From: Chloroflexota bacterium
Lineage (GTDB): Bacteria; Vulcanimicrobiota; JAMCWD01
Length of the DNA: 64,000 nt
Direction: 5' to 3'
Assembly: GCA_023475345.1 (NCBI GenBank)
Contig: JAMCWD010000004.1
Location: 1 to 64,000 of the forward strand
The translations under genes were made by a program, and so were the position numbers. Positions 344 to 61,060 of this stretch are shown piece after piece. Every line of letters starts with the position of its first letter. Position 1 is the stretch's first letter. A model generated the notes under the pieces. That model was not told where the DNA came from. It was given only the letters and a program-made list of their open reading frames with translations, and made no database searches.

Positions 344-1576
344 TCAATGGCAGTAGCTTGCTTCAGGCTTTACAACGGACATCTTTGCGCTCTTCGCCGT
401 TGCCGCCATTATTATCCCCAGTATTGAAAGCGCAAGCGCCGTAACTATTATGCCTGCGTATTCCGGGAACAAAAGCGCAAGCGATGGAACACCGAGAAGC
501 AGCATCAGGCACACGCCGCCGACCGATACCGCAAACCTTGTGCTAACAACTTTCCACAGGTAGATTAAAACAAAGCCTGCGATAACTATTATCGAAACAG
601 GCAGCGCATAAGAGATATCCATGTATGCGCTCAGATATGCGGACACGGGATAGAAGAAGGCGTAAGCCGCCGTCGTCAGTATAACGGGGAGAGTCCTGGC
701 CTTCATCCCGAATAACGCCGACCCGCCGATAAGCCCGCCGAGGAAAATCAGGCACAGGGCCGGGGCGTAGCCGAACAGCTTCCCGAAATTTGCAAGCTGT
801 GTCCCTGCGGGAAGCTGGACCCCTATGTCCATATTTGTAACCAGGTTTTCAAGGCTCCATGTATATGCCATACCGTCGGCATCTTTGCTCTTGCTTACGG
901 GAGGAAGACAGCCTTCGGGCACTTCGACTTTTTTCGTGCCTTTGACCTTGAGGTCGAAGCATAACTTTTTCATCCGCTCACCTTTCGGAAGAGCATAAGT
1001 ATAACGGCCCATGCCCAGAGCGTTATACGTTACATTTAATTTTTTTGCTTCATCGGGCAGGAACAGGCCGCTCCAGGTTATGTTGTTTATAGTGTAGGTG
1101 ACATCGGGAGGCTCCACGCCGTCAACAAGGAGTCGGAGATTCGATATGACGCCGCCGTCACCGGGAAGCGGCATGTAAAATTGAATGTATGCTTTCTCGT
1201 TATAAGGATTTTTCAGGATGAATTCGCCTGCAAAGTCGGCGTTGTAGTAATTTTTCCTCCCGTCAACCGGAGTATAATCCAGGACGAGATTGATCACGCT
1301 TTCCGTTGCGGCTATGCCGGGCAGGTTCTGCCTGTAAGAATCGGCGGGCATGATCCTTGCCCCGCCGTATCCCATCTCATCATACTTCATCGCCCGGATT
1401 TCACAATTGGACTGGACCAATTCTTTGATCCTCACATCGGGTGAATGTGCCGTATTTTTTGTAAGGTTATGAACGCCGTAAAATAACATGTTCCCGTAAT
1501 CCCCGCCGAACTTCAAGGTAAATATCAGCAGGAAGATCCCCGCCAGAGCCGCCAGCAGATATTTCTTCTTATCCAT
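344..1576 (-). CDS. Membrane protein with large extracytoplasmic domain, CreD-like topology
   Basis: This 410-residue protein has one N-terminal membrane segment (about residues 6-24), a soluble domain of some 240 residues probably outside the cytoplasm, and about five hydrophobic segments at the C terminus. That layout and the tone of the C-terminal helices recall the CreD inner-membrane family, but I see no diagnostic CreD motif, so the family link is tentative. I prefer the ATG at 1576 because AGGGGG lies eight bases upstream. A GTG at 1609 is possible but has a weaker site. A strong terminator follows the gene. It stands alone, with no two-component CreBC partner nearby. Confidence 0.6.
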   Translation of the reverse strand: MDKKKYLLAALAGIFLLIFTLKFGGDYGNMLFYGVHNLTKNTAHSPDVRIKELVQSNCEIRAMKYDEMGYGGARIMPADSYRQNLPGIAATESVINLVLDYTPVDGRKNYYNADFAGEFILKNPYNEKAYIQFYMPLPGDGGVISNLRLLVDGVEPPDVTYTINNITWSGLFLPDEAKKLNVTYNALGMGRYTYALPKGERMKKLCFDLKVKGTKKVEVPEGCLPPVSKSKDADGMAYTWSLENLVTNMDIGVQLPAGTQLANFGKLFGYAPALCLIFLGGLIGGSALFGMKARTLPVILTTAAYAFFYPVSAYLSAYMDISYALPVSIIVIAGFVLIYLWKVVSTRFAVSVGGVCLMLLLGVPSLALLFPEYAGIIVTALALSILGIIMAATAKSAKMSVVKPEASYCH

Positions 1577-1640
1577 TTCATCAACCCCCTTCAGAATGTT
1601 TTCACCCACTCTGTCGCGGGGGATGGGATTTTTATTCCGG

Positions 1641-3270: not shown

Positions 3271-3745
3271 CCTCTTCGAACTTTAGCCGCGAAGAACCGA
3301 AATATCGCAACAAAGTCCCTCTTTGCTATTAGTCCCCGAAGGGGGCCAGGGGGTTGGGGGATGTTGAGTTTCCGCTTGTTCCGTTATTTATTTAACCGCA
3401 GAGGCCGCAGAGTTTTACGCAGAGCACGCAGAGGGTTAACGCAGGGATTTACAGGGTTCTTGTTTCAAGCCCCCTGGTAGGGGCGGGGTTTCCCCGCCCG
3501 CCAATTTTCTAGTTTCTAGTCCACCCACCTCGGCCTTTCGACTGCGCTCAAGGCCATCTCTCCGGCGGAGGGGAATTCAGTTGTGCAGGAATGTCAACTT
3601 CAGCCTTAAACCTGCATGATACCGAAACGAAGTCCCCCTTTGAAGGGGGATGTCGCTTCACCGCTTTGCTTCGTATAACAGCCGTAACGGGGGGATGTCG
3701 AGCAGGCACAAATTTCCGCAATAAATCACACAGATCCGGCAGAGA
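3271..3745. repeat. Gap filled with degenerate interspersed repeats
   Basis: No gene is supported between 3239 and 3759. The stretch holds a copy of the GAACTTTAGCCG family (3277 on), a copy of the AACCGCAGAG family (3391-3460), and a composite ending in the hairpin-forming AAGTCCCCCTTTGAAGGGGG and GGGATGTCG (about 3632-3706). The same modules recur near 16.3, 16.55, 19.9 and 36.8 kb. Short open frames here are translations of repeat sequence. Confidence 0.7.
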
Positions 3746-16200: not shown

Positions 16201-16597
16201 TTGGTTGTATTCAGAGACAACGCAATTAAAAACTTGACGACGGGCAAAACAAAGTCCCCTTGAACTTTAGCCTCAAATCTGCAAAGCAGCAAAACAAAGT
16301 CCCCCTTAATGAAAGGGGGTGGCCGAAGGCCGGCCCGCGACGAGCTCGGCCGAGTCGGGGATGTCGGGCAGGCACTTGCTTCCATTTTTTAAACCGCGGA
16401 GGACGCAGAGGATCTTCGCAGAGAGCGCAGAGTTTTACAGGGTTTGTTTGTTAAAAGATGTGAGCTTAAGCCTCAAACCTGCATATCGGCAAAACCGTCA
16501 TACCAGCGAAGGCTGGTATCCATTCCAGCAATGAATCCTTTGAACTTTAGCCGCAACGAACCGGAATACCAGAACGAAAATCCCCCTTCGTCAAGGG
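16201..16597. repeat. Repeat-rich gap upstream of the insertion sequence
   Basis: This stretch has no supported gene. It contains CCTTGAACTTTAGCC with AAAGTCCCCCTTAATGAAAGGGGG (about 16258-16320), a GC-rich inverted segment, GGGGATGTCGGGCAGGCAC, the AACCGCGGAGGACGCAGAG family (16387-16446), an inverted repeat ACCAGCGAAGGCTGGT (about 16501) and a further TTGAACTTTAGCCGCAACGA copy (16540 on) whose CCCCCTT...AAGGGGG hairpin is cut by the insertion sequence. Confidence 0.7.
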
Positions 16598-17994: not shown

Positions 17995-19632
17995 TTACAA
18001 CTGTTTTTTCTTATCAACCTTTAAAAATTCTTCAATACTTTTCCCCTGGTCGGGAAGAAACTGCCTGAATTCATAAGCCTCTTTGACACAACGGAGACCT
18101 TTTTCCTGCTCGCCGATATTCAGAAGAGCAAGTCCCAGATTTAATACTGTCATAGCATAATCAGCCGGGTATTCATCTTTCTTTCTGATTTCAAGCGCTT
18201 CATTAAAACAATCTATTGCCCTTCTTATATTGGCCGTTCTTTCCTCCGGGGTGGATGAAGGCAGGTCGCCGTAGGCAGTCCCCAGATTATTCCGGGCCAT
18301 GGCATATTCAACCGGATATTTATCCTTCTTGCAGATTTCAATTGCCGCGTTGTAGCAATCTATTGCCCTTCTTATATTGGCCGTTCTTTCCTTCGGAGTG
18401 GATGAAGGCAGGTCGCCGTAAGCATTCCCCAGATTATTCTGGGTCATGGCATATTGAACCGGGTATTCATCTTTATTGAGAATCTCAAGGGCTTCATTAA
18501 AACAATCTATTGCCTTTTCTACATTGCCTGATCTCTCCTCCGGGGTGGATGAAGGCAGGCGCATGTAGGCAGTCCCCAGGTTATTCTGTGTACCGGCATA
18601 ATCAACCGGGTATTCATCTTTATTGAGAATCTCAAGTGCTTCATTAAAACAATCTATTGCCTTTTCTACATTGCCTGATCTCTCCTCCGGGGTGGATGAA
18701 GGCAGGACGCTGTAGGCAGTCCCCAGATTATTCTGTGTCATGGCATATTGAACCGGGTATTCATCCTTCTTTCTGATTTCAAGCGCTTCATTAAAGCAAT
18801 CTATTGCCCTTCTTATATTGGCCGTTCTTTCCTCCGGGGTGGATGAAGGCAGATCCATGTAGGCAGTCCCCAGGTTATTCTGGGTACCGGCATAATCAAC
18901 CGGATATTCATCCTTCTTGAGAATCTCAAGGGCGGCTTTACAATTCTCCACAGCATGCCGTACATTTTCTCCTATTGCCTTTCCGTCAGAGGAAGGTCTA
19001 TGGAGGTATGTGATCCCTACGTTTGTCAGGGCGAAAGCTTCCCCTGCCCTGTCCCCGGCTTTTCGGGCTTCGCTGAGAGCCGCCCCGTAATATTCCGCCG
19101 CCTTAAGGTATTTCCGTAACTCATAGTAGCAATTGCCAATCTGGATATTGAGCGCGCCCCGCTTTTCATGGTCCGGTTCCAAATCCAGAGCCGCCATAAA
19201 AACATTTGCCGCCTCCTGAAATTTGCCTTTCTCAAGATATGCCCGCCCTTCCTCAAAATACTCCTTGACGCCTCTGGCTTTGGATTTTATCACCCCATCC
19301 TGGTAATCAACCGGGCTTATATTAACTATTGCTCCTTTCTCCGCATGTATGTTATATATGCTTACAGGCCCACTGTTCCTGGTAATTGCCTGTGCAGGGG
19401 AATCGGAACCTCTTGTTTCTACCTTGATAGAAGAAGTCGGCGGTGTTAATCTGTTTATCCCGAAAATTATTCCAAATATTATTATGAGTAAACTAAATAT
19501 ACTAATGATAACCTTGACAATGAGGGGTGGTAATATTTTTTCTCGCCAAATTTTTTTATCAAAGAGGTAGCTCTTGATAGACTTCAGCATCTTTTTGTTT
19601 GGTATGATTTTTTTAAAAGATTCAAAGCCCAT
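17995..19632 (-). CDS. Membrane-anchored TPR protein with near-identical repeats
   Basis: The 545-residue protein begins in the cytoplasm, has a single membrane helix (about 37-60), then tetratricopeptide repeats. Residues 261-505 are five head-to-tail copies of a 49-residue unit, LPSSTPEERxxNIxxAIDCF...YPVxYAMTQNNLGTAY, of kinesin-light-chain type; degenerate units flank them. The corresponding 147-base DNA repeats (18118-18852) are nearly identical, so the array is young or kept uniform by recombination. GGACAGGGGC precedes the ATG. It lies between two WD40 paralogues and the IS. The role is probably a protein-binding scaffold; no effector domain is attached. Confidence 0.85.
   Translation of the reverse strand: MGFESFKKIIPNKKMLKSIKSYLFDKKIWREKILPPLIVKVIISIFSLLIIIFGIIFGINRLTPPTSSIKVETRGSDSPAQAITRNSGPVSIYNIHAEKGAIVNISPVDYQDGVIKSKARGVKEYFEEGRAYLEKGKFQEAANVFMAALDLEPDHEKRGALNIQIGNCYYELRKYLKAAEYYGAALSEARKAGDRAGEAFALTNVGITYLHRPSSDGKAIGENVRHAVENCKAALEILKKDEYPVDYAGTQNNLGTAYMDLPSSTPEERTANIRRAIDCFNEALEIRKKDEYPVQYAMTQNNLGTAYSVLPSSTPEERSGNVEKAIDCFNEALEILNKDEYPVDYAGTQNNLGTAYMRLPSSTPEERSGNVEKAIDCFNEALEILNKDEYPVQYAMTQNNLGNAYGDLPSSTPKERTANIRRAIDCYNAAIEICKKDKYPVEYAMARNNLGTAYGDLPSSTPEERTANIRRAIDCFNEALEIRKKDEYPADYAMTVLNLGLALLNIGEQEKGLRCVKEAYEFRQFLPDQGKSIEEFLKVDKKKQL
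18118..18852 (-). repeat. Five tandem 147-base coding repeats
   Basis: Each unit starts at CTGCCTTCATCC on the minus strand (Leu-Pro-Ser-Ser) and encodes 49 residues. Units two and three of the array share the SGNVEKAIDCF variant; the others share TANIRRAIDC. The pattern suggests duplication of blocks rather than of single units. Confidence 0.85.
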
Positions 19633-19731: not shown

Positions 19732-19823
19732 AAAAATCAGTACTGTCCAATAAAAAATAACTTTTCACCCCCGGCCGCATTTAGTTTATTGCGGGTCGTC
19801 GAATATAGCCTGAAGCTTACATT
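19732..19823 (-). repeat. Interspersed element R1, full copy
   Basis: Read on the minus strand this goes AATGTAAGCTTCAGGC, CCCGCAATAAAC, GGGGGTGAAAAGTT, then TTTTTTATTGGACAGTACTG. The same blocks in the same order and nearly the same spacing occur at 61061-61155 on the plus strand, and the last block also at 1641-1677. Confidence 0.7.
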
Positions 19824-20100
19824 ACTGCACTGGATTCCCGCCTGCGCGGGAATGACGTCCTGTCAGTTTTTTCTTGTATATTGCAGTACAGAATTGCAGG
19901 CTTCAGTCTCAAACCCGCATGACAGCACAACAAATTCCCCCTTGAACTTTAGCCGTAACGAATCGAAATACTGAAATGTACGTACTTTACACTTTGGACA
20001 GGGAATGACGCGCTATAGCGTTTCGTATAGGTTCCTGCGAATGCGGAACAATCAACTCCGTCGTCATCCCCGCGAAAGCGGTTGTCTGAAAAAAAACATG
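19824..20100. repeat. Repeat-rich gap downstream of the second WD40 gene
   Basis: No gene is supported between 19633 and 20115. The gap contains the third GCACTGGATTCCCGCC / GCGGGAATGACG inverted-repeat copy (about 19829-19857), a CTTCAGTCTCAAACCCGCATGACAG module, TTGAACTTTAGCCGTAACGA (19942 on) and a further CGTCATCCCCGCGAAAGCGG remnant near 20060. Confidence 0.65.
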
Positions 20101-20115
20101 GATCGGCAAAAAAAT

Positions 20116-22014
20116 CTAAGGATTATCTCCGCCTCTGAGGTTATACAGGATCTTTTTTTTCATAACATCCCATATTTTCCAATAGCCGTCTTCGGAACAT
20201 GTTACAAGGTATTTTTTATCGGGAGAAAACGCAAGGGAGTTGATTTCCTGGGTATGTCCTTTCAATTTTGCATAAGGCTTCATGCCGGGCATTTTCCAGA
20301 TCATTACCAGCCCATCCCCCAGCCCCGCCGCGACAAGGCTCCCATCAGCGCTGACATCGACAGCCTTGACCACTACATCGCCAACCGAAATATCTTCAAT
20401 TATACGGCCGCTTTTGATATCGGCCGTCTTCAGCTTCCCGTCATCACATGCTATCAAAAGATCCCCCGATGGCAGAAATTTAACCGCCCACAACTCGTCC
20501 TTTCCCGATGAGCCTTCCTTATGATTCGAGAATTCAAATACGGGCCTCATATCGGCCAGATCCCATACAACAGCCGTTTCATCGATGGAGCATGCCGCCA
20601 GGAACTTCGAATCGGCGGAAAAATCAATCCCGAAAACCTGATCCTTAAACGCCGAAAACGAAGCCAGCAATCTGCCCGTCCCTGCGTCCCGGAGATTGAC
20701 TTTATTATCTTCGAAGCCTGCGGCTATGAATTTGCCGTCCGGAGAAATCGCTGTACAATGAATGTCGTCTTCCTGGCTTTCCAACTGCTTCTTCAGCCTG
20801 CCGGAGGACGCATCCCACAATTTAAGCTTCCCGTCCCATGATGCGGTGGCCAGAAATTTGCCGTCGCGGGAGAACGCCATGCCTTTAATATCGTCCTTGT
20901 GGCCGTCTATCCCGGAAACTATGTTGAACCCGGGCACTTTCCGGAAACGGATTTTTCCATCCTCGTCGCCGGTAACCAGGTATCCGCCTTTCGGCGTAAA
21001 TGCCACCGAAACCACATCATCCGACCTGCCCTTTATGTGCCTGACGAGTGAATATTTTTTCAGATCCCAGATTTTTATCGATGAATCTTCGGAGCCGGTG
21101 GCCAGGTATTTCCCGTCAGGCGAAAAGGCTACGCTGTTGACGATCATATCGTGGGCCTTGAACGATTTTATCAATTTATCATTGCCCGCGCTCCATATCT
21201 TCACGAGGCCGTCCGCCCCGGCCGTGGCTATGTATTTGCCGCCGGGGGAATATGTAAGGCTCCTGATATTTTCATCGTGTGCTTTTATTTTCTTTTCAAA
21301 TTTCAGGGAGCCGTTCGAAAAGGTGAAGAAGTCCAGTGTCCCTTCTTCCGTTACCGCCGCGACATATCTCCCATCGGGGGAAAACCGGAGCTTGTTTATC
21401 TTTCCGGGAAACTTCGTCTTGAAAATTTGCCTGTATTTAACCCCGTCCCACAGGCGGACCGTCATATCCTCCGATGCCGATGCGATATATTTCCCATCGG
21501 GGGACATGGCGATGGTGGTAACTTTCCCGTTGTGTCCCTTTAGTGTTGTAAGCAGTTCCCCGTTTTTTACATCCCATATTTTTATGGTTTTATCGTCGGA
21601 TGCCGAGGCAACCCTTTTGCCGTCGGAAAAAAAGAGCACGCCGGTTATCCAGCCCCCGTGCTCGCCCTGTGAAAAAGGGCTTTTCCTGCTTATAAATTTT
21701 ACAAATTTTCCTTCGCGCAGATCCCAAAGCCTGACGGTATTGTCGCATGAGCCGGAAACTATAAACCTGCTGTCGGGCGATATCGTTGTTGACATGACAT
21801 CGGCCCTGTGGCCCCGGAGGGTGCTTAAAAGCTTCCATGTGCCCGTGTCCCAGATCTTAATGGTGCTGTCCTCGGAACTCGAAACAAGATATTTCCCGTC
21901 GGGAGAAAATATCACGGAGCAGACATCGTTGGTATGTCCGGAAAAACCGGCGCCATAGATCCCCGATATCAGCAGCACAAAAAAAATAGTGATCAGAAAC
22001 AATGTTTTTTTCAT
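20116..22014 (-). CDS. Secreted WD40 repeat protein, copy 2
   Basis: This paralogue of the gene at 14233-16134 has about the same length and the same order of repeats (for example GHTNDVCSVIFSPDGK near the start and LKGHTQEINSLAFSPDKK near the end), diverged throughout. I place the start at the ATG at 22014 so that the protein opens with the signal peptide MKKTLFLITIFFVLLISGIYG; an in-frame ATG 45 bases upstream would spoil it. About fourteen WD repeats fill the mature protein. It is divergent from the next gene, with a shared upstream region of 150 bases. Confidence 0.85.
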   Translation of the reverse strand: MKKTLFLITIFFVLLISGIYGAGFSGHTNDVCSVIFSPDGKYLVSSSEDSTIKIWDTGTWKLLSTLRGHRADVMSTTISPDSRFIVSGSCDNTVRLWDLREGKFVKFISRKSPFSQGEHGGWITGVLFFSDGKRVASASDDKTIKIWDVKNGELLTTLKGHNGKVTTIAMSPDGKYIASASEDMTVRLWDGVKYRQIFKTKFPGKINKLRFSPDGRYVAAVTEEGTLDFFTFSNGSLKFEKKIKAHDENIRSLTYSPGGKYIATAGADGLVKIWSAGNDKLIKSFKAHDMIVNSVAFSPDGKYLATGSEDSSIKIWDLKKYSLVRHIKGRSDDVVSVAFTPKGGYLVTGDEDGKIRFRKVPGFNIVSGIDGHKDDIKGMAFSRDGKFLATASWDGKLKLWDASSGRLKKQLESQEDDIHCTAISPDGKFIAAGFEDNKVNLRDAGTGRLLASFSAFKDQVFGIDFSADSKFLAACSIDETAVVWDLADMRPVFEFSNHKEGSSGKDELWAVKFLPSGDLLIACDDGKLKTADIKSGRIIEDISVGDVVVKAVDVSADGSLVAAGLGDGLVMIWKMPGMKPYAKLKGHTQEINSLAFSPDKKYLVTCSEDGYWKIWDVMKKKILYNLRGGDNP

Positions 22015-22092
22015 ATAAACCAATCTTATCAGAAGATGAAAATACAATTCAACTCGCACGGCATTTTTTTAACATCTTTTTAACATTTTCAC

Positions 22093-23308: not shown

Positions 23309-23338
23309 AGACAAATAGAATAAGGTTCCGAAAGCAAA

Positions 23339-23369
23339 ACAGGGGCGGTTTATACGCCCCTGTTTTTTT
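23339..23369. terminator. Bidirectional terminator between the Vps62-like gene and pnp
   Basis: ACAGGGGCG (23339-23347) pairs with CGCCCCTGT (23355-23363) around a seven-base loop. It is followed by seven T on the plus strand and by TTTTGCTTT on the minus strand, so it can end transcription of both converging genes. Confidence 0.9.
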
Positions 23370-23389
23370 GTTTATTTAAGGATTTATAG

Positions 23390-47100: not shown

Positions 47101-47595
47101 GTAACGAAATCCAACAAGACAATGGCGTTCCTGACGCTGGAGGATCTTACCGGGATTATGGAAGTAACAGTGCTCCCGGTAATTTATGATAAATACGCGA
47201 ACCTCATAGAAGAAGACAAATTGATAGCGGTTATAGGAAAACTGGAAAAAGCCGACGCCGCTGAAGCCGCCGGGGAGGAAACCGCCCCCCGGCGTGAAAT
47301 TAAACTGAGAGCTGACGAGATCCATGACCTGGGAGACGGGATAAGTCAGTTAAAGAAAAACAGGACTAAGAAATATCTACACTTGAGAGTCGAACAGGAA
47401 CATTATGAGCGCCTGCCTGAACTGGAAGAAATCATATCGGGGAATCCCGGTCAACTGCCGGTTTACCTCCACATAGCATCGCCGGGGAGAGAAACAGTGC
47501 TTGAGCTTGATCCTAAATTCAAGGTGTCGGATACCAGAACTTTAAGGAACGCCCTCCAGGAAATTCTTGGGACGGGTTGTATCTGGAAAGAATGA
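44149..47595 (+). CDS. dnaE: DNA polymerase III alpha subunit
   Basis: The 1148-residue protein starts at the ATG at 44149 (GAGGGACAGG upstream), giving MSFAHLHVHTEYSLLDG, the PHP-domain start typical of DnaE. The polymerase core holds GPGRGSAAGSLVAYLLGIT and PDIDTDFC, then the fingers, a tandem HhH region and the OB fold (VGGLISAIKKKVTKSNKTMA). This is the replicative DnaE1 type by length. It overlaps the following MFS gene by four bases. Confidence 0.97.
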   Translation: MSFAHLHVHTEYSLLDGVCRIDDLVNRSKELGLPAIAMTDHGVMFGAVEFYEKARNAGIKPIIGCEVYVAPRTMFDKEHKIDDRLRHLLLLVKDQEGYKNLLKIVTRSHLDGFYYKPRVDKQLLSQHAKGLIASTACLQGEIPQHLLKGSENAAETCLETYRDIYGRDNVYIELMDHDLPEDQELNRKLVSLAKKSGTPLVATNDVHYLNEEDAYFHDITLCVGTQSTIDQPDRFSFQGKGYHLRSPLEMAELFGEIPEAVQNTLVIADRCNFEMDLDTLHLPDFHPPDNMTTEDYLRKLCMEGLEEKYPGGTPPEVMERLEYELSVINQMGYPAYFLINWDFISYARRNDIPVGPGRGSAAGSLVAYLLGITQIDPLKYGLIFERFLNPGRKSMPDIDTDFCKLRRGEVIKYVTEKYGSENVSMIGTFGRMKARGSVRDAGRALNLPLQFVDRIAKLIPGGPKVTIAEARSNPELAREITTDEQARKLLVVAEGLEGLARHASTHAAGVVISKEPIYNYCPLQRIKQEEVVTQYEMTSIDKIGLLKMDFLGLRNLTVIQYCTEWIKKNHGIEIDLNKIPLDDEEAFRLVQEGRTVGIFQFESTGMRRYLKDLKPTRLEDLIAMNALYRPGPLGGGVVDDFIKRCHGKSAITYIHPLLEPILKETHGLIVYQEQVMFIANRLAGFSMAQADDLRKAMGKKKAEVMQEQKERFVNGCAEKGVSKADAEKIFNFIEYFAGYGFNKSHSAAYALVAYWTIYLKAHYPNEFMASLLTGFIDSTDRIAEIIREIKDMGIRIFPPDVNKSGYEFIPTGEGIIYGLGALKNVGEAAAKAIVEERETNGKYNDLIDLCRRVESHHANKRVLESLIKSGSMDSLGMNRASLLENLETVMADAERKRRHEGQDQISLFGEDGVQFHYEILPDMEPARLLKLEKESIGFYLTKHPMDEVQKFISRLKLNTINSLEDLQSGEQVRVGGLISAIKKKVTKSNKTMAFLTLEDLTGIMEVTVLPVIYDKYANLIEEDKLIAVIGKLEKADAAEAAGEETAPRREIKLRADEIHDLGDGISQLKKNRTKKYLHLRVEQEHYERLPELEEIISGNPGQLPVYLHIASPGRETVLELDPKFKVSDTRTLRNALQEILGTGCIWKE

Positions 47596-48809
47596 TACTC
47601 GGAGAGCGGGATCTGCCCCGCAAAACATGGCTTCTGGGATGGGTGAGCTTCTTTTCGGAAGTAAGCGGCAACATGATTTATCCGCTGCTCCCCGTCTTTT
47701 TTATGGTTATCCTGCAGATACCCGTATTATACATCGGGATCATCGAAGGTGTATCCAATGCCGCCGGGACTTTGCTCCCCGTATTTTATTCCCGTCTTCT
47801 GAAGGGGATAAAGAAAAGAAAAGACATGCTTTACATGGGATACGGCATTACGGCGTTCGCGAGGCCTCTTTTCTTTTTCGTCATAACATTCCCGCAGGCA
47901 TTGCTCATAAGGATGGTGGAATTTACCGGCACAGGCTTCGGCAGGCCTGCTTCCGAAGATGTGCTGGCGGTGGGTGCCAATCCCGCGTTGAACAACCGCA
48001 TACAGGTTTCATTTAAAACCAAGATGCTGTTGGGCGCCATACTTGGCCCGCTGCTTGCTTATTCGCTGTTCATATATTTCATGGGAAATTACAGGGCGGT
48101 TTTCTGGCTTGCCGTAATCCCTGCAATCATCGGCCTCCTTATTATCGGAAGCCTCAAGCCCTCCGAGACGGAGGGAGACTCCGCCGAACCTGTTTCTGCG
48201 CCCGCAGTGTTCACCTTCCGCATAAGGGATTATGGAAAATATTTCCGCCGCTTCCTTCTTGTCTCAATGCTCGGCTCGCTTGCAAATTATTCTTATTTTT
48301 TCGTGTTCATACTGGGCACCGTCAACAATATCCTGCCCGAAAACCTGGTCCTGTTATGGGCCGGGGCCAATATAGCCGCCACGGCCAGCCTGCTGTTCTT
48401 TTCAAAAATATCACAACGGGTTTCTAAATATGAATCCTTGACGTTGAGTTACGTACTGCTCGCGCTTATCTGGTACGGTTTCTCTAACTGTGTCAAACTC
48501 CCGCCAATCTACTTCATGACGTCTTTTTCCGTCCTGATGCTGGGGCTGGGTTTTTATAACGGCCTGAGCGGCGGGCTGCTTTCCTCACTGGCCGGGGAAC
48601 TGGCGCCCCCGGGATTCGAGAAGCGGGCAAAGCTCACATTGAGCTTTTATCTTGGAATAATGCTGCTTTTATCGAATATTCTCGCCGGGTTGACATGGAA
48701 ATGGGCAGGCCCGGAATATACTTTCTGGATCGGCACCGCAACTTCTTCTTTATGCGGCCTTTTGATGATCTTCACCAATATCGGCGGCAAAAGTAAGACA
48801 AAAACCTAA
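47592..48809 (+). CDS. MFS transporter
   Basis: The roughly 405-residue protein has about twelve membrane helices and begins in the ATGA overlap with the dnaE stop; a TTG at 47577 is an alternative start. The family motif is weaker than in the transporter at 11726. The cytoplasmic loop holds KPSETEGDSAEPVSAP. Coupling to dnaE is probably a chance of operon layout. The substrate is unknown. Confidence 0.78.
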   Translation: MILGERDLPRKTWLLGWVSFFSEVSGNMIYPLLPVFFMVILQIPVLYIGIIEGVSNAAGTLLPVFYSRLLKGIKKRKDMLYMGYGITAFARPLFFFVITFPQALLIRMVEFTGTGFGRPASEDVLAVGANPALNNRIQVSFKTKMLLGAILGPLLAYSLFIYFMGNYRAVFWLAVIPAIIGLLIIGSLKPSETEGDSAEPVSAPAVFTFRIRDYGKYFRRFLLVSMLGSLANYSYFFVFILGTVNNILPENLVLLWAGANIAATASLLFFSKISQRVSKYESLTLSYVLLALIWYGFSNCVKLPPIYFMTSFSVLMLGLGFYNGLSGGLLSSLAGELAPPGFEKRAKLTLSFYLGIMLLLSNILAGLTWKWAGPEYTFWIGTATSSLCGLLMIFTNIGGKSKTKT

Positions 48810-48881
48810 CCCTAATTTACTAGATCACATTCACTAACCGAGGTGGGTGATTTATGCAGTGAATCTCATCCCTTAAACTGA

Positions 48882-48909
48882 TTGTTCATATAGATTAAAT
48901 AATTATAAT
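48882..48909 (+). promoter_or_regulatory. Promoter for the small RNA candidate
   Basis: The minus-10 box is a perfect TATAAT (48904-48909). The minus-35 box is weak (TTGTTC, 48882-48887) with a 16-base spacer. Transcription would begin about 48916, at or within the outer stem of the RNA. Confidence 0.5.
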
Positions 48910-48912
48910 AAT

Positions 48913-49024
48913 AATTAAGAAGTCGTCAACGCTGAAGATCCCCAAGTAAGGGTTCCCAAACCCTGAAAGTCTCGGCTCAAAGCTATCTCCTTCCCCTCTT
49001 CGGCAAGACGGCTTCTTAATTTTT
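48913..49024 (+). ncRNA. Candidate small structured RNA (novel)
   Basis: A 15-pair outer stem joins AATTAAGAAGTCGTC (48913-48927) to GACGGCTTCTTAATT (49007-49021). Inside it an 8-pair stem GCTGAAGA/TCTTCGGC (48931-48938 with 48997-49004) and a hairpin AGGGTT-CCCA-AACCCT (48949-48964) are visible. Each of the two long stems has one G-U wobble on the plus strand, which would be an A-C mismatch on the minus strand, so the plus strand is the RNA. The outer stem runs into a run of T (49020-49024), as in a terminator. It does not match tRNA, SRP RNA, 6S or any riboswitch I know. Confidence 0.65.
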
Positions 49025-49080
49025 GTACGGAAAATACAACGCCGCTATGGAACAGGCTTTTGCCGGGGCCGGGCATCGGT

Positions 49081-49140
49081 TTTAACCGCAGAGTTCGCAG
49101 AGGATTCCCACCGAGATCACAGAATTTTTATAGTGTTTAT
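49081..49140 (+). repeat. AACCGCAGAG interspersed repeat
   Basis: TTTAACCGCAGAGTTCGCAG followed by AGGATTCCCACCGAGATCACAGAA belongs to the same family as 3391-3460 and 16387-16446. The rest of 48810-49237, apart from the small RNA candidate and its promoter, holds nothing I can support. Confidence 0.7.
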
Positions 49141-49237
49141 GAGTTATATCAAAAATCTTCTACAATGATATAACATGGAACCATAAAGGGGACGAGGATT
49201 CGGCATGAGAGCTTTAACCGCAGGCTCCCGCGGGGGA

Positions 49238-50377
49238 TTACTTTTTCTTAAGCCTTTCAATCGTCCCGTTAAGGTATTTTTCAAGGTAAGCGTCTTTATC
49301 CCTGCGGGCATATACAAGGGACTTCTCAAATGCCTCCAGCGCCCCGGACTTTTGTCCCATCTTTTCAAGCGCTTCTCCCATAGTCGCCCAGGCATACGGG
49401 AACTCCGGCGATATTTCGATGGATTCGGTACAACAGGTAAGGGCTTCTTCCGGCCTGCCCGTCCTGACCAGGATGTCGCCTTTATTGTTCCATGCAGTAG
49501 AGTCTTTCGGGTTCAGGGCGATGATCCTGTCATAGCACTTCAGCGCTTCCCCGTATATGCCGAGCCTGTCCAGCGCCGCCGCCTTGCCGTATAACGATGC
49601 GCTGCCTGAGTCCAATTCTATCGACCTGTCGAAATTCTTTACAGCCTCGTCTTTCTTTTTCAGGCTTAAAAAAGTTACGCCCCTGTTGAACCACGAAATA
49701 TCGTTCCGGGGGTTTATCGAAACCGCCATGTCGTAATATTTTAGAGCTTCGGCGCTTTTGCCCAGCTTTTCCAGTACAAGGCCCTTGCTGGAAAGAGCAT
49801 CGGAGTTTTCGGGATCTATTTTCAGGGATTTATCCAGTGATAAAAGCGCGTCCTTATACCGGCCCAGCCTGACGAGCATAAGCCCTTTTTTTGCAAACGC
49901 CGAGGGATCTTCGGGGGCGATGGCGGCCGCCGTCTCATAATTTTTCAAAGCCTGTCCTTTATGACCCATCATCGCCAGGGCGTCCCCCTTGATACACCAG
50001 CTTTCCGGGTTGTCCGGGTTCAGGGCGATGGATTTGTCGAAGCTGTTTATTGCTTCAAAACTTTTCCCGAGCATTACCAGGGCGAAGCCCTTCTTGCGCC
50101 ATGCCTCGATATATTCGGGATTTAGCTCGATGGCCTTATCGTAACATTCGAGGGCCGCGTTGTATTTGCCGAGCCGGTAAAACGATTCCCCTTTTTTATA
50201 CCATGTTCCGGCATCCTGCGGCCCGGGCTTTTCGCCGGACGGAACGGCCTGTTGCTGGGCTTTTTGCGAAAACAGGCACCCTGGCAATTTGAAATTTTCC
50301 CCGCCGGTTTTCCCCTGGCATCCGGCGGACAAGATCAAAGTTAGAACAAGCAAAATCGAAATCCATCTGATATTCAT
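49238..50377 (-). CDS. TPR lipoprotein
   Basis: The 379-residue protein has a signal peptide with lipobox LSAGC and about nine 34-residue tetratricopeptide repeats (for example AWRKKGFALVMLGKSFEAI, ALSSKGLVLEKLGKSAEAL). It is a membrane-tethered scaffold, and nothing indicates the partner. It stands alone, divergent from the channel gene. Confidence 0.85.
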   Translation of the reverse strand: MNIRWISILLVLTLILSAGCQGKTGGENFKLPGCLFSQKAQQQAVPSGEKPGPQDAGTWYKKGESFYRLGKYNAALECYDKAIELNPEYIEAWRKKGFALVMLGKSFEAINSFDKSIALNPDNPESWCIKGDALAMMGHKGQALKNYETAAAIAPEDPSAFAKKGLMLVRLGRYKDALLSLDKSLKIDPENSDALSSKGLVLEKLGKSAEALKYYDMAVSINPRNDISWFNRGVTFLSLKKKDEAVKNFDRSIELDSGSASLYGKAAALDRLGIYGEALKCYDRIIALNPKDSTAWNNKGDILVRTGRPEEALTCCTESIEISPEFPYAWATMGEALEKMGQKSGALEAFEKSLVYARRDKDAYLEKYLNGTIERLKKK

Positions 50378-59500: not shown

Positions 59501-59536
59501 TGAAATAAAAGAGAGCCTGATTAAAGGCTCCCTTTT
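59501..59536 (-). terminator. Terminator after the subtilase gene
   Basis: AAAAGAGAGCC (59507-59517) pairs with GGCTCCCTTTT (59526-59536) with one wobble. On the minus strand it is followed by TTTTATTTC. This separates the subtilase from the ABC operon. Confidence 0.8.
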
Positions 59537-59552
59537 GAAAAAACCGGTTTTA

Positions 59553-60884: not shown

Positions 60885-61060
60885 AAAGTAAATCCTCCTA
60901 AAATATTTATTGCAACAAATATACAAACTGAGATATATTATAACTTCAATGAGCGCTGCTGTAAAGACAAAGAGAGGCCGAATATATTAACAAATTATTA
61001 AATTTTCTAAAAGATTTAATAATATTCATGCGCCGGAACGGAGATGGATACTGTACCGTG

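Follow-up and report, generated by a model that had tools for sequence, protein, structure and literature searches.

A folded structure lies in the spacer at positions 48810–49237 of the window, which is the whole stretch of 64,000 nucleotides analyzed here. Its most likely reading, although a tentative one, is a terminator-like 3'-end hairpin of the convergent MFS/TPR gene pair on either side of it. This is also the simplest reading, because the closing stem adjoins TTTTT between convergent genes that have no other terminator, as indicated by a scan for short-loop terminators (loop of 3–8 bases) across 48700–49300 that found none. The folded 3'-end region would belong to the plus-strand MFS transcript, and possibly to both convergent transcripts. 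RNA polymerase may terminate at the structure, or the hairpin may protect the end of the mRNA; in either case, the MFS message would be stopped or protected by an extended, branched hairpin with TTTTT at its end.

Fold and gene context

An earlier note on this DNA had described a 15-pair stem that closes a region with two further helices, followed by a T run, in a spacer between an MFS gene and a convergent TPR gene. Each of these elements was found (Table 1). The 15-pair stem folds at exactly the positions described, the helices inside it are an 8-pair helix and a 6-pair hairpin, accompanied by a weak 4-pair hairpin, and the MFS and TPR genes flank the spacer on the plus and minus strands, respectively. 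A plus-strand open reading frame at 49205–49594 was judged spurious based on its antisense overlap with the TPR gene. The 15-pair stem and the 8-pair helix are separated by a 3x2 internal loop, and the closing stem encloses a branched loop of 79 bases.

Table 1. Features of the structure and its surroundings, in window coordinates.
Feature	Position	Strand	Basis or remark
MFS transporter gene, upstream	47577–48809	+	Pfam MFS_1
TATAAT with weak -35 TTGTTC (48882–48887, 3/6)	48904–48909	+	sequence
TTGACG-16-TATAAT, 11/12, best nearby promoter match	48902–48929	-	reads leftwards, away from the structure
Closing stem, 5' arm AATTAAGAAGTCGTC	48913–48927	+	folds with 49007–49021, pair probability 0.75–1.0
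Inner 8-pair helix, 5' arm GCTGAAGA	48931–48938	+	pairs with 48997–49004, probabilities 0.88–1.0
6-pair hairpin AGGGTT-CCCA-AACCCT	48949–48964	+	probabilities 0.73–1.0
Weak 4-pair hairpin GGCT-CAA-AGCT	48974–48984	+	fold
C/U-rich loop ATCTCCTTCCCC	48985–48996	+	mostly unpaired; anti-Shine-Dalgarno-like by composition only
Inner 8-pair helix, 3' arm TCTTCGGC	48997–49004	+	fold
Closing stem, 3' arm GACGGCTTCTTAATT	49007–49021	+	fold, paired to 48913–48927
TTTTT tract adjoining the closing stem	49020–49024	+	sequence
TPR-repeat protein gene, convergent	49238–50377	-	

Several repeat-protein genes are present in the window, including a gene for a WD40 beta-propeller protein (20116–22059) located beside one for a TPR protein (17995–19632), both on the minus strand.

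Transcript ends and terminators

In Zymomonas, intrinsic terminators located between convergent genes are enriched among mapped transcript ends, and in E. coli, they often work in both directions (PMC7566282). One of the other strong spacer folds of the window, at 23326–23370, is evidently a bidirectional terminator and likewise lies between convergent genes; there, AACAGGGGCG...CGCCCCTGTTTTTTT at about 23338–23368 forms a compact GC-rich stem with a T tract. Further terminator-like hairpins among these folds are found at about 59510–59540 and 280–320. Of all spacer folds in the window, the strongest lies at 217–335 (z about -5.9 to -6.3), adjoins a TATAAT cluster, and consists of a closing stem CCGGTACG/CGTACCGG around the hairpin GGCTCCTC...GAGGAGCC. 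The terminator of the gene at 344–1609 (minus strand) is probably part of this fold.

The structure is a poor example of a terminator because of its branched loop and its A-U-rich base. It lacks the GC-rich, short-loop stem with an immediate U tract that defines intrinsic terminators, although its long-loop stem does adjoin TTTTT. Particularly, a strong terminator would have the opposite of the A-U-rich stem base found here beside the T tract, and the formation of this base requires the far 5' arm. In favor of a terminator, the sequence immediately past the stem on the minus strand is A/T-only.

Stability relative to shuffled sequences

Taken by itself, the segment 48900–49040 appears highly structured, with a folding energy of -40.9 kcal/mol compared with -22.4 +/- 3.1 kcal/mol for its own dinucleotide shuffles (z = -5.97). 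However, the structure was picked out of 64 kb, and the search space must therefore be counted. Stems of at least 15 pairs, with G-U permitted and loops of 20–130 bases, occur three times in the window, compared with about 2.3 expected from block-shuffled windows. When folds were scanned across the whole window and scored by dinucleotide-regressed z, the structure reached -4.55 to -4.69 and ranked fourth in the 64 kb, and a fold of equal or greater strength was present in two of seven dinucleotide-shuffled 64-kb windows (29%). When only spacers (7.5 kb) were considered, it ranked third in the window with a z of -4.52 (about -4.75 at optimal placement), and the latter value was reached in 2 of 24 shuffled spacer sets (about 8%). 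Given the small numbers of shuffles, these results correspond only roughly to family-wise chances of 0.1 (spacers) and 0.3 (whole window). The stability of the structure is thus marginal after allowing for the search space. More generally, a z of -6 for one hand-picked segment comes down to roughly 1 in 10 when all spacers in 64 kb are considered.

The fold by itself does not clearly exceed what chance would give in the window, which counts against the terminator reading. It also gives weight to a second explanation, namely that the structure has no function and is an accidental or decaying inverted repeat that folds well by chance in an A/T-rich spacer. Both the number of long stems and the strength of the fold are close to what shuffled sequences provide, and we consider this explanation a serious possibility, even if a somewhat unlikely one. 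Nonetheless, a chance of about 8% among the spacers alone leaves the structure somewhat unusual. Moreover, the fold statistic scores neither the two helices in register nor the fitting placement of the T tract.

Strand assignment and promoters

The wobble pairs had been proposed to fix the strand. The imperfect pairs of the long stems (U48923-G49011 and U48933-G49002) are indeed both G-U on the plus strand and A-C on the minus strand, but an outcome of two out of two for one strand or the other has a probability of 1/2. Furthermore, the folding energies of the minus and plus strands are close (-36.7 and -39.1 kcal/mol, respectively). Two wobble pairs say little about the strand.

A similar ambiguity applies to the upstream TATAAT, which had been regarded as promoter-like. 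The hexamer is present, but it is half of the palindrome ATTATAAT and also reads TATAAT on the minus strand (48907–48902), where the better -35 element is found. A palindromic TATAAT cannot assign the strand. The -35 box of the minus-strand TTGACG-16-TATAAT shares bases with the closing stem, in its 5' arm.

The minus-strand promoter offers an explanation that is partly independent of the others. The sigma-70-like site at 48929–48902 has no gene downstream and may give rise to a leftward transcript that is antisense to the MFS gene at its 3' end, in which case the inverted repeat would merely flank a promoter. The match to the consensus is 11 of 12, and the exact hexamers TTGACG and TATAAT at a spacing of 15–19 are expected only 0.02 times per window. 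In addition, 11/12 sites appear to be often real in this window, since three of the four others stand directly upstream of gene starts, at 60965(-), 16198(-), and 37035(+). Nevertheless, on the minus strand, the site is followed neither by a gene nor by a clear terminator or a conserved structure, and the palindrome makes the -10 elements of the two strands a single event rather than two. We regard such an antisense unit as quite improbable.

C/U-rich loops and a possible small RNA

Another explanation is a lineage-specific small RNA (sRNA) of about 105–110 nt, transcribed rightwards from the TATAAT at 48904–48909, with the closing stem and TTTTT serving as its 3' end. Several features are consistent with this explanation, including the well-defined fold of the plus strand, the G-U rather than A-C pairs that both long helices carry on that strand, and the fitting distances of the -10 element and the T tract. 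Unpaired C-rich regions are also present; UCCCC at 48939–48943 is unpaired, and AUCUCCUUCCCC at 48985–48996 is mostly unpaired in the ensemble. The staphylococcal sRNA IsrR uses single-stranded, C-rich regions for pairing with Shine-Dalgarno sequences (PMC9410917). The regions found here resemble those, and if the structure is an sRNA, its C/U-rich loops (UCCCC, UUCCCA, and AUCUCCUUCCCC) could pair with the ribosome-binding sites of target mRNAs.

Among 40 genes of this window, the pairing of AUCUCCUUCCCC with the 28-base region that ends at the start codon had a mean of -7.4 kcal/mol, compared with -5.6 kcal/mol in gene interiors. However, composition-matched shuffled loops paired equally well with gene starts (55/200 and 62/200). 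The pairing of the C/U loop to gene starts is a property of composition and not evidence for a specific seed. Other observations that weigh against an sRNA are the weak -35 element on the plus strand, with the only strong promoter pointing the opposite way, and the absence of a known family or a homolog in the collections searched. Overall, an sRNA of this kind is unlikely. An independent plus-strand RNA gene is not established, because the better half of the promoter faces the opposite direction, only two wobbles speak for the strand, and the stability is marginal.

The form of this idea in which the structure is an orphan regulatory RNA (about 110 nt) that occurs in this lineage alone, with its 5' and 3' ends joined in one stem and its C/U loops acting on ribosome-binding sites, is rather doubtful. 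For such an RNA, the 3' end and the body may be a single structure. If expressed, the RNA would join the other lineage-specific sRNAs and be of local interest.

Copy number and homologs

Both BLAST and a covariance model, the latter built from the single sequence, indicated that the structure is single-copy in its own genome. A miniature inverted-repeat transposable element (MITE) or other dispersed repeat was ruled out by this single copy; in a similar search, a genuine dispersed element from this genome returned 38 matches. That element, a structured repeat at 19790–19925 on the minus strand, is at least 136 nt long. Its 38 genome matches (E <= 0.01) include five near full length with 71–100% identity and similar flanks. 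It contains GTCATTCCCGCGCAGGCGGGAATCCAG, has a fold (z -5.2) as strong as that of the structure at 48913–49024, and explains a weak Rfam match to FtrB (E 0.05). The GTCATTCCCGCGCAGGCGGGAATCCAG part resembles the Neisseria dRS3-type ATTCCC...GGGAAT repeats.

A different dispersed repeat, TTTAACCGCAGAGNNCGCAGAGG, is found in the same spacer as the structure (49085–49103), as well as at 3395–3413 and 16393–16411. With at most one mismatch, it has 11 copies in the genome, whereas the reversed control pattern has none. After several of these copies comes a further hairpin-like stretch that they have in common, GGGGCGGGGTTTCCCCGCCC.

When applied to 149 genomes of the phylum and to 388 relatives, the covariance model matched only the structure itself. 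BLAST against 98 relatives returned only scattered pieces of about 15–31 bases that do not line up. Against phages, it returned only one chance A/T match of 21 bases, and against plasmids, it returned nothing. Three exact patterns had no match in viral contigs. Synteny provided no additional help, as the nearest relative of the MFS protein in the collections searched is only 26–27% identical, and a search via DnaE led to only three loci in Clostridia (42–44%). The relatives searched by BLAST share only the phylum with this lineage. The lack of homologs, the single copy, and the presence of a dispersed repeat copy in the same spacer are all in line with a structure that has no function. However, none of the collections searched contains a close relative of the lineage, and the missing homologs are therefore uninformative.

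Comparison with known RNA families and systems

The earlier note knew of no RNA family that the structure matches, and this agrees with the Rfam search, in which no family reached its gathering threshold and the matches at E <= 10 were at chance level, none of them convincing. The small bacterial SRP RNA (RF00169) was rejected as a candidate because that of this genome sits elsewhere (C60:6171-6270). The 6S RNA (RF00013) was rejected because its covariance model has no match in the window; the same model detected nothing in the 86%-complete genome. The structure and 6S RNA both have an open region enclosed by a long closing stem, but the family has 187 positions compared with 110 nt here, and the structure has neither the long terminal stem nor an Rfam match.

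Trans-acting C-rich sRNAs, such as the staphylococcal IsrR, are similar in length (about 110 nt), in their several unpaired C-rich stretches, and in their promoter-like and terminator-like ends. The structure shares no sequence with these, lacks a separate terminator hairpin, and has no homolog in the collections searched.

Compared with an intrinsic bidirectional terminator of convergent genes, which corresponds to the reading that we tentatively prefer, the structure has a branched loop of 79 bases instead of 3–8, an A-U-rich stem base, and a tract of only five T. Its likeness to such terminators lies in an inverted repeat that is followed by a T tract and located in the spacer between two convergent genes.
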